Assembly (NCBI GenBank): GCA_009929855.1
Contig: RZZN01000021.1
Coordinates: forward strand, 1-64,000
Origin: Gammaproteobacteria bacterium
GTDB lineage: Bacteria; Pseudomonadota; Gammaproteobacteria; Chromatiales; Chromatiaceae
DNA length: 64,000 nt
Direction of reading: 5' to 3'
Made by a program: the position numbers and the translations under genes. Shown one piece after another: positions 38,916 to 41,513 of the stretch. Numbering within the stretch: the first letter of the stretch is position 1; each line of letters starts with the position of its first letter. The notes beneath the pieces are model-generated. The model ran no database searches. It had not been told where the DNA came from and worked only from the letters and a program-made list of their open reading frames with translations.

Positions 38916-41513
38916 TCAGGTGTCGATCCGATAGTTGGGCGCTTCCTTGGTGATCTGCACGTCATGGACATGAGACTCACGCATGCCGGCCGCGCTGACC
39001 CGCACGAACTGCGGCTTGGTGCGCATCTCCTCGATATCGGCGCAGCCGGTATAGCCCATGCTCGAGCGCAGACCGCCCGCGAGCTGGTGGATCACGTTGA
39101 GCACGCTGCCCTTGTAGGGAACCCGGCCCTCGATCCCTTCCGGAACCAGCTTTTCCTTGTCGGTGCCTTCCTGGAAATAGCGGTCGCTCGAGCCCTCCGA
39201 GGCGCCCATGGCCCCGAGCGAGCCCATGCCCCGATAGGACTTGTAGGAGCGTCCCTGATAGATCTCGACCTCGCCGGGGGCCTCGTCGGTGCCGGCGAAG
39301 AGCCCGCCGATCATGACGCTGTTGGCGCCGGCCGCGATCACCTTGGCGACATCGCCCGAGAAGCGCAGACCACCGTCGGCGATCAGCGGGACGCCGGTGC
39401 CGTTGAGCGCCTTGCTCACATTGGCGACAGCGGTGATCTGGGGAACACCGACACCGGCGACGATGCGGGTGGTGCAGATCGAGTTGTGCACGATCGCATT
39501 GTCGGCGATGAAGCTGTGGGTCGGGCAGTCGACCTCGATGTCATAGACCGGCAGCGCGAGACTCAGGGGTTGACGATCCAGGAGACTCAGGGGCTGATGC
39601 GTCCGGGGCTGGCCGCGGTCCTCCGTGCCCACCAGATTGGCGTGGAAACGCTCGCGACCGTCCGCGACACTGCCAGGGTCGCTGGTCGAGCCGAGCTCGA
39701 CCTGGCACTCGGGGAGCCGGCCGTGGGTCAGCAGCGCGAGCAGGCTGAAGAGCTCGACCAGCGCCCGCGACTCATGGCTGAATCCGATCCGGCCAGCGGC
39801 CGTGCGCCGGCCGCTGCTGTCGACCAGTCCATCGCAGAGTCCACGCAGATAGCGTGGATCGGCGCACAAGAGCTCGGCCGGCAGTGCGCGCTCGTGCGGC
39901 TTGCCGAGACGAGCGAGCCACCTCGCCCAACCTGATGCCTCGACCTGGACGCCGAGGATGCCTGGAGCGGTCGCGCGGACCGGCTCCACCCCGATGACCT
40001 CGCGGATGGCGTGGGTGAGACGGTCGACGAGGGCCGACTCGCGCGCGTCGAAGGTCCAGGAGAGATGCCCCGACCCCGCCAGGCAAGAGGTGCCGCTGAA
40101 GGCATGACCGGCCCCGAGGAAGCTGCCCAGGAGATAGCCGAGCGCCTCCGACTCGCGGATCCGTTCCGGTGCGGACGAGGATTGCGGGTCCAGCGCTTGG
40201 CCATGGGGCGGCTCGTGCAGGTCGATCTCGAGCCGTTCGGGAAGCTCGAAGTCGACCCCGCGCGGAAAGAGACAGACCCCTTGCTCGACCGCGTCGATCC
40301 GAGTCCAGCTGGTCCTCGTGAGGTCTCCGCGGCGCGGCTGATCGCGCCCACCGAGCGCGTCCCGCGCGCCGAGCGCCGCGGCCTCGGTCCGGACGGGCGA
40401 CTCGATCAGATAGCGATGATCGGGCGTGGCGAGCGTGCCCAGGAAGGACGCGCCATGCCGAATCTGCATGACCTCGCGCACGCCGGTGCACCAGGCATTG
40501 ATGACGCTGACCGGTTTTCCCTCGCCATTGATGACCCGGTCGCCCGGACGGATGGCTTCGATGTTCCGGTAGGTGCCGTTGGCCATCAACACCCGGGTGC
40601 CGGCCGCGAAGCAGCCCGGACCGATGCCGACCTTGACCGCGTCCGCCCCGGCCGCGACCAGCGCGCGCGCCGCGTCGGCGGTGGCGATGTTGCCGCCGAT
40701 CACCTGCACCTCGGGATATTGGCGCTTGATCCAGCTCACCCGGTCGAGCACGCCTTGGGAGTGGCCATGGGCGGTGTCGACCACGATCACGTCGACCCCG
40801 GCCTCGACGAGGGCCGCCACGCGCTCCTCGGTGCCGGCGCCGACGCTGACCGCGGCGCCGCAGCGCAGCCGCTCCTGGGGATCGCGCGAGGCCTTGGGGA
40901 AGTCCTTGGCCTTCTGGATGTCCTTGACCGTGATGAGTCCACGCAGCTCGAAGTCGCCGTTGACCACCAGCACCTTCTCGATCCGGTGGGCATGCAGGAG
41001 CTTGACGACGTCGGCACGGCTCGCGCCCTCGCGGACCGTGACCAGTCGCTCCTCGGGGGTCATGATGGTCGAGACCGGCTCGCTCATGCGGGTCTCGAAA
41101 CGCAGATCGCGGCCCGTCACGATGCCGACCAGTCGGCCTTGCTCGGTGACCGGCACACCCGAGATGTTGTGCGCGCGGGTCAGCTGTAGGACCTCGCCGA
41201 TGCTGGTGCCGGGCGAGACCGTGATGGGGTTGCGGATGATGCCGCTCTCGTAGCGCTTCACCCCCATCACCTCGCGCGCCTGGCGCTCGGCGCTCATGTT
41301 CTTATGGATGATGCCGATGCCGCCCTCCAATGCCATGGCGATCGCCATGCGGCCCTCGGTGACCGTGTCCATGGCCGCCGAGACCAGCGGGATCTTGAGC
41401 GCGATCCCGCGGGTGAGCTTGGTTTGTAGATCGACCTCATTCGGCAGCACGCGCGAGTGTGCGGGGACGAGGAGGACGTCATCGAAGGTGAGTGCTTCCT
41501 GGATCAGGCGCAT
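38916..41513 (-). CDS. guaB: IMP dehydrogenase precursor containing an intein
   Basis: GuaB oxidises IMP to XMP, the first committed step to GMP. The 865-residue precursor consists of 300 residues of IMPDH, an intein of 377, and 188 more of IMPDH, giving a mature enzyme of 488, the normal length. The N-extein contains the barrel start, two CBS domains (about 95-200, with [13 protein letters not shown] after them) and ends with GIGPG. The C-extein starts with [12 protein letters not shown], whose Cys is the catalytic nucleophile. The intein thus interrupts the active-site loop, and the enzyme can only work after splicing. A GGAG lies 7 bases before ATG 41513. guaB heads the guaB-guaA-tadA operon. 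Confidence 0.95.
39483..40613 (-). mobile_element. Intein in GuaB with degenerate LAGLIDADG domain
   Basis: The 377-residue intein runs from Cys1 ([13 protein letters not shown], block A) to His376-Asn377 (AIVHN, block G), with Ser as the +1 extein residue. Block B has TPDH (Thr63, His66), and block F is [17 protein letters not shown]. All residues needed for splicing are visible. The central region has two LAGLIDADG-like motifs, [10 protein letters not shown] (about 160-169) and [14 protein letters not shown] (255-268), in which the catalytic aspartates are replaced by Ala168 and Ser267. The homing endonuclease is therefore probably inactive while splicing is retained. Base composition resembles the host gene, suggesting long residence. 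Confidence 0.93.

Follow-up and report, generated by a model that had tools for sequence, protein, structure and literature searches.

A class 1-type intein with a LAGLIDADG domain lacking its catalytic acids in the active-site loop of a Chromatiaceae IMP dehydrogenase

Why does an IMP dehydrogenase (IMPDH) gene carry 377 additional codons within its catalytic loop, and what keeps them there? The question is raised by guaB on a 64,000-nucleotide stretch, hereafter the window (contig RZZN01000021.1, positions 1 to 64,000, assembly GCA_009929855.1), from a relative of the purple sulfur bacteria. We conclude with high confidence that the insert is a class 1-type intein (Cys1, Asn-Ser+1) belonging to a widespread family at this GuaB/IMPDH site, and that it is now immobile. 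Its anatomy, fold, conservation, loss of catalytic acids and patchy distribution are computed results; splicing itself is predicted.

Anatomy of the interrupted guaB gene

The gene is read as one 865-residue frame without internal stop, and the insert occupies residues 301–677 in frame (40613 down to 39483), flanked by GIGPG and SICTTR. The parts are given below, with residue counts taken from an alignment of 22 distinct inteins (rows), which become 24 once L072 and L073 are added. The block names and motif definitions are those in general use for inteins.

38916..41513, minus strand: guaB (IMPDH) precursor, intein-interrupted open reading frame (ORF) of 865 residues; PF00478 E 1.3e-155, TIGR01302 610.6 bits
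40614..41513, minus strand: N-extein of GuaB, residues 1–300, last residues GIGPG, with two CBS matches
39483..40613, minus strand: intein, 377 residues, Cys1 to Asn377, assigned by residues, fold and PF05203
40578..40613, minus strand: splicing block A with the Cys1 nucleophile (Cys1 in 22/22 rows, also in L072 and L073)
40416..40427, minus strand: splicing block B, TPDH (Thr63, His66; Thr and His in 22/22 rows)
40107..40142, minus strand: first LAGLIDADG-type motif, with Ala168 in place of the catalytic acid (Asp in 16/22 rows); helix 156–168 in the model
39810..39851, minus strand: second LAGLIDADG-type motif, with Ser267 in place of the catalytic acid (Asp in 17/22 rows); helix 253–267 in the model
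39483..39548, minus strand: splicing block F and C-terminal block (VYDIEV...HSF, VHN|S), last residues His376-Asn377 (His-Asn in 22/22 rows)
39474..39476, minus strand: codon of the IMPDH catalytic Cys (residue 303 after splicing, +3), placed by alignment
38919..39482, minus strand: C-extein of GuaB, 188 residues, first residues Ser(+1)-Ile-Cys(+3), aligned to solved bacterial IMPDH chains

The initial annotation had delimited the same 377 residues at 39483..40613 and expected a 488-residue GuaB upon their removal. Both points hold, the latter being also the length of the uninterrupted GuaB of congeners. Its placement of the insert between GIGPG and SICTTR is likewise correct, except that the insert stops directly before Ser rather than one residue before Ser-Ile-Cys. 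The Cys of the Ser-Ile-Cys loop is the catalytic residue of IMPDH, and in alignments of the C-extein with bacterial IMPDH chains of known structure the match begins at the Ser-Ile-Cys of the latter (4avf residues 303–489, E 8.8e-93), which places the catalytic Cys at +3. The insertion site is among the most conserved parts of the protein: 10 of 477 twelve-residue GuaB stretches are equally or more conserved, the site itself counted. In base composition the insert barely differs from the remainder of the gene (69.1 vs 67.3% G+C).

The splicing signatures listed in the initial annotation are all present, as Cys1, the TPDH of block B, the VYDIEV...HSF of block F and VHN|S. Indeed, Cys1, Thr63, His66, His376-Asn377 and Ser+1 are kept in 22/22 rows as well as in L072 and L073, Ser+1 being found in all rows. 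The profile check proposed at the time also came out in favor of an intein, since the insert alone reaches PF05203 (Hom_end_hint) with 33.6 bits against a Pfam cut-off of 32.1. That the score is so close to the cut-off, and falls just under it (32.0 bits) when the insert is searched within the whole ORF, weighs against the assignment, and the support from sequence is modest. Nevertheless, because PF05203 is reached and full-length relatives occupy the same guaB site in other genera and phyla, the insert is not a chance product. Its first 39 residues, in addition, match PI-SceI by sequence.

The fold points the same way. In a fold search, a structure model built from the 22 rows (mean pLDDT 83.9) aligned over its whole length, first residue to last, with TliVMA, PhoVMA, PI-SceI, PI-PfuI and 2cw7, inteins that all carry a LAGLIDADG endonuclease nested within them; I-DmoI and further LAGLIDADG enzymes were also recovered. 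As modeled, the insert has the Hint fold, and its residues mark it as a class 1-type intein with a nested LAGLIDADG domain, predicted to splice. The initial reading of an intein within the catalytic loop is retained, in a gene that is the only one detected for IMPDH in this genome, while the LAGLIDADG domain and the loss of both its acids had been overlooked.

A Hint domain could alternatively be of the bacterial intein-like (BIL) kind, which cleaves only. We regard this as highly improbable in view of the Asn-Ser terminus, the full-length intein-plus-endonuclease fold and the insertion in one of the most conserved GuaB stretches, given that excerpts of PMC2814812 place BILs in non-conserved regions.

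Distribution and mobility of the inteins at this site

Comparison with other GuaB proteins, likewise proposed in the initial annotation, brought up full-length relatives at the same site in other genera and phyla: 24 distinct cellular inteins, the window's included, lie at exactly the same GuaB position in five phyla. Within Chromatiaceae, 15 of 210 genomes match. Thirteen of these matches, including the window's genome, are full-length and sit at GIGPG|SICTTR; the remaining two (G068 and G075) are weak and go to other Hint sequences. When contigs of named genomes were scanned with two exact peptide patterns, 18 loci were recovered, 18/18 at the same site. Nine of them carry an intein identical to one in the family genomes, and the other nine come from Chloroflexota, Planctomycetota (2), Actinomycetota (4), Deinococcota and Thiorhodospira; L072 and L073 add two copies from the phylum to which L042 belongs. 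Records with such identical inteins bear the names Thiocystis, Thiodictyon, Chromatium and Halochromatium, all Chromatiaceae, and point to that family for the window's genome. In samples outside the family the intein is very rare. Among 369 genomes at class level, the window's genome gave the only full match; a 396-genome sample held two full matches besides its centre genome, and a 294-genome sample held no full match besides its centre genome.

Presence is patchy at close range, too. Only one of 11 genomes of the window's genus has the intein, and guaB is continuous in nine of the other ten. The tenth, G003, has a genus-like match that ends with residue 227, along with a second guaB that is more distantly related and uninterrupted. 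Four further genera hold both intein-bearing and continuous genes: g48 (four with intein, three continuous), g68 (two and five, one genome without match), g72 (four and three, one without match) and g16 (one and six, one partial).

These records bear on the prospect of an assembly or binning artefact, for which one may point to the source genome (4.81 Mb, 100% complete), an assembly of 414 contigs with 3.18% contamination. However, the flanks are those of the genus guaB, 89–91% identical over residues 1–301 in nine relatives, and same-site inserts occur in independent records, including the culture-numbered strains Thiocystis minor, Chromatium okenii, Thiospirillum jenense and Thiorhodospira sibirica. 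We consider the chance of an artefact negligible.

On a GuaB DNA tree that combines 14 carriers with the 30 intein-free genes matching best, all 30 of the latter reading exactly GPG|SICTTR, intein presence requires at least ten changes of state, a count in which gain and loss are not distinguished. The inteins L016 and L017, both of which keep the catalytic acids, differ at 10/1131 bases, while their guaB flanks are 80–96% identical per 60-base bin; the synonymous distance (dS) is 0.43 for the extein and 0.02–0.04 for the intein. Near-identical inteins in diverged guaB genes thus indicate recent transfer. Across phyla, intein identity exceeds host protein identity in some pairs (L018/L039, 64 vs 55%; L018/L040, 60 vs 55%) and falls below it in others (L018/L042, 58 vs 60%; L018/L047, 56 vs 60%; window/L039, 45 vs 55%). 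From the overall pattern we infer horizontal transfer between phyla.

Relatives also occur on viral contigs from IMG/VR, the main basis on which we call these contigs viral. In a comparison of 19 selected neighbor ORFs on L116, L117, L125 and L126 with PHROGs, 11 matched phage families (thymidylate synthase, PhoH, tail, endonuclease VII and others), and two on L126 had no PHROGs phage family match. Searching by alignment brought up 18 loci, of which 14 (L134–L147) are full-length relatives. Twelve of the 14 (L134–L144 and L146) are inserted at the G|S-x-C-[T/S]-T-R loop; L147 lies two residues upstream of it, and L145 is in another gene. Nine of ten viral host proteins scanned belong to the IMPDH/GMP reductase family, with the hosts of L142 and L144 exceeding the GMP reductase cut-off, and the tenth (L145) is RtcB-like. 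Eight of the 12 loop-site hosts are profile-confirmed as members of the IMPDH/GMP reductase family; L135 is on the contig of L117 (IMPDH), and L137, L141 and L146 are assigned by junction only. The L145 intein (1711–4473 on a 298 kb viral contig) is thus a GuaB-family-related intein in an RtcB-type RNA ligase, a sign of movement to a different host gene.

A pattern scan for Val-His-Asn|Ser-Ile-Cys-x-Thr-Arg returned 22 viral stretches followed, as judged by eye, by IMPDH-like sequence. In 16 of them the open frame begins only 36–44 residues upstream and contains Met, which is what the C-part of a split intein would look like; sixteen viral IMPDH genes (L112–L115, L118–L124 and L129–L133) thus apparently start with such a part. 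The other six are either contiguous or truncated where the locus ends. Among them, L125 is a mini-intein of 158 residues without endonuclease, 35–42% identical to 16 cellular rows, and L127 and L128 represent another lineage (20–29% identical to 16 cellular rows, the window's included).

In a tree of 12 viral and 24 cellular inteins, one branch (100/97) divides all viral from all cellular inteins. The tree omits L148, which is partial, as well as L137 and L146, which share junction and length with L136 and L142 and on that basis, not on computed identity, were taken as their apparent copies. Given this split, no recent exchange is visible in this sample, and neither the direction nor the date of transfer can be told from it. 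Direct phage-to-bacterium transfer of the window's intein, which had been considered, is accordingly unsupported.

Taken together, the patchy presence, the near-identical inteins in diverged guaB genes and the viral-contig relatives at the same loop fit a mobile intein whose homing cycle has, in the window's copy, reached the phase of decay.

State of the endonuclease and probable dependence of the host on splicing

Both LAGLIDADG helices are present in the window's intein, and neither ends in a catalytic acid. Since Ala168 and Ser267 stand in place of the acids, we do not class it as an active homing endonuclease, and from sequence its nuclease is probably dead. Both acids are kept in 16 of the 24 cellular inteins, one is lost in three (L022, L024 and L025) and both are lost in five (window, L026, L027, L048 and L073).

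Divergence from L018 suggests the same. The two are 83% identical in the splicing part and 85% in the exteins, vs 47% in the endonuclease part. Counted against an outgroup, the changes in window/L018 are 70 vs 9 in the endonuclease part and 8 vs 3 in the splicing part. Two observations weigh against this reading. First, acid-keeping control pairs are mixed: three are fairly even (L018/L016, 18 vs 23; L040/L041, 8 vs 9; L020/L021, 10 vs 6), and two are not (L023/L021, 16 vs 3; L019/L021, 6 vs 16). With uneven rates in two of five such pairs, rate alone is no proof of decay. Second, the endonuclease part is still an open frame with pairwise w below 1, values that are rough because dS > 1, and some constraint is therefore left, be it folding or an unseen role.

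As for the host, a TIGR01302 profile search of the window's genome found no second strong IMPDH, so that de novo guanylate synthesis probably needs GuaB splicing. In 20 of 22 carrier genomes there is likewise no second TIGR01302 match of at least 200 bits, although one of the 20 (G575) has a 183-bit relative. Of the remaining two, G581 has further pieces and G097 has an intein-free second gene. G097 (89% complete) carries intein-bearing guaB on C39 (L018) and the second IMPDH at C43:97093–98448; its intein is that of the Halochromatium record L031, and the two genes represent a duplicate or a mixed bin.

The splicing steps are established for class 1 inteins, and by analogy the window's intein may follow them. 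The 865-residue precursor, presumably without IMPDH activity, would fold; Cys1 would form a thioester at Gly300; Ser+1 would attack and receive the N-extein; Asn377 would cyclise, freeing the 377-residue intein; and the ester would turn into a peptide bond, yielding a 488-residue IMPDH. Splicing alone would make its catalytic loop, GPG-SIC, continuous. The LAGLIDADG domain nested in the intein would formerly have driven its homing into guaB alleles that lacked it, by breaking the DNA at the conserved codons of the loop. With both acids gone and the endonuclease presumably inactive, the window's copy would be retained by selection for splicing and because deleting it precisely from the sole IMPDH's catalytic loop is difficult.

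Two other accounts of its retention were weighed. The intein might be kept because its splicing works as a switch that sets GTP supply after translation, for instance through oxidation or metal binding at Cys1 near the catalytic Cys. It is true that the splicing residues never vary, even though some members of the family have a decaying endonuclease, and conditional splicing is reported for other inteins, the mycobacterial DnaB intein being blocked under oxidizing conditions according to excerpts of PMC7179400. Yet selection for active IMPDH by itself explains the invariance, and most genomes of the family do without the intein (13/210 carry one), which makes a switch unlikely. Less likely still, splicing of the precursor has ceased and guaB is a dying gene, with guanine nucleotides obtained from salvage. 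The endonuclease part is degenerate and splicing is a prediction from sequence, as such an account would have it; against it, the exteins are intact (85–88% identical to GuaB of 12 other family carriers), the splicing residues are complete and no other IMPDH gene was found in the genome. A combined proposal, which we also hold to be unlikely, is that the IMPDH/GMP reductase loop is a docking site for at least two intein lineages, LAGLIDADG-bearing in phages and bacteria and split in phages, and that bacterial copies devoid of endonuclease persist because redox state or metals gate the sole IMPDH through them, with GTP supply controlled at splicing. We therefore stay with an intein in decay, held by selection for splicing.

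Relation to known inteins and other observations

The initial annotation regarded GuaB as an unexpected host, a claim weakened by the split intein IMPDH-1. According to excerpts of the literature, IMPDH-1 stems from Global Ocean Sampling data (PMC10882715), natively sits at the junction GGG-SIC (PMC11271493, PMC12350263) and is a class 1 intein with Cys1, Ser+1 and parts of 106 and 42 residues (PMC11766414); citing papers credit it to Carvajal-Vallejos 2012 and Dassa 2009. It thus shares with the window's intein the host and the insertion between Gly(-1) and Ser-Ile-Cys, so neither host nor site is new. Unlike IMPDH-1, the window's intein is contiguous, LAGLIDADG-bearing and in a cellular guaB, whereas the parts of the split intein would be too short for a nested endonuclease. 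The viral look-alikes L127 and L128, closed forms of the split type by eye, are 21–23% identical to the window's intein. No description of a contiguous guaB intein was found in the literature searched, which did not include InBase, where a guaB entry is possible. This analysis adds a contiguous LAGLIDADG-bearing family that spans five phyla in cellular guaB, relatives of that family in viral IMPDH and GMP reductase, and the decayed copy in the window.

A close parallel in length, acid loss and degenerate endonuclease is PhoVMA of P. horikoshii (7qst), described in excerpts of PMC8966425 as having 376 residues, both acids lost and the endonuclease degenerated; it differs in host protein and site and is 16% identical. 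PI-SceI (Sce VMA) and TliVMA share the full-length fold, but their host is a V-type ATPase and their endonucleases are active. The viral IMPDH/GMP reductase inteins (L134–L144, L146) are full-length relatives in the same active-site loop, yet lie across one branch from all 24 cellular inteins. Both site and decay agree with general accounts, as excerpted, that inteins favor conserved catalytic sites (PMC2814812, PMC7765530) and that endonuclease function is lost after fixation with splicing still selected (PMC1654191).

One site thus displays stages of the homing cycle: recently moved copies with their acids, copies lacking one or both, a viral mini-intein (L125), empty sites in sister species and apparent split forms on viral contigs. 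It is also the site of a laboratory tool, IMPDH-1, which now has contiguous neighbors, and because the activity of spliced IMPDH can be selected in E. coli, decay, retention and possible splicing regulation are directly testable.

Further in-frame Hint inserts occur in the window's genome (G000) on contigs C267, C319, C404, C185 and C52 (L075–L081). Their hosts, named by eye, are GyrA, DnaB and DnaE (short inserts) and GyrB and a SpoVR-family protein (longer inserts, that of the SpoVR-family protein being under the Pfam cut-off), making six Hint-bearing hosts with GuaB counted. Elsewhere in the window, positions 2–6601 hold a 2199-residue ORF that reaches the left window end and has DUF7507/DUF11 and CshA-type repeats, likely a large surface protein, and positions 20577–22382 hold a 601-residue ORF with Tectonin-domain and FG-GAP matches.
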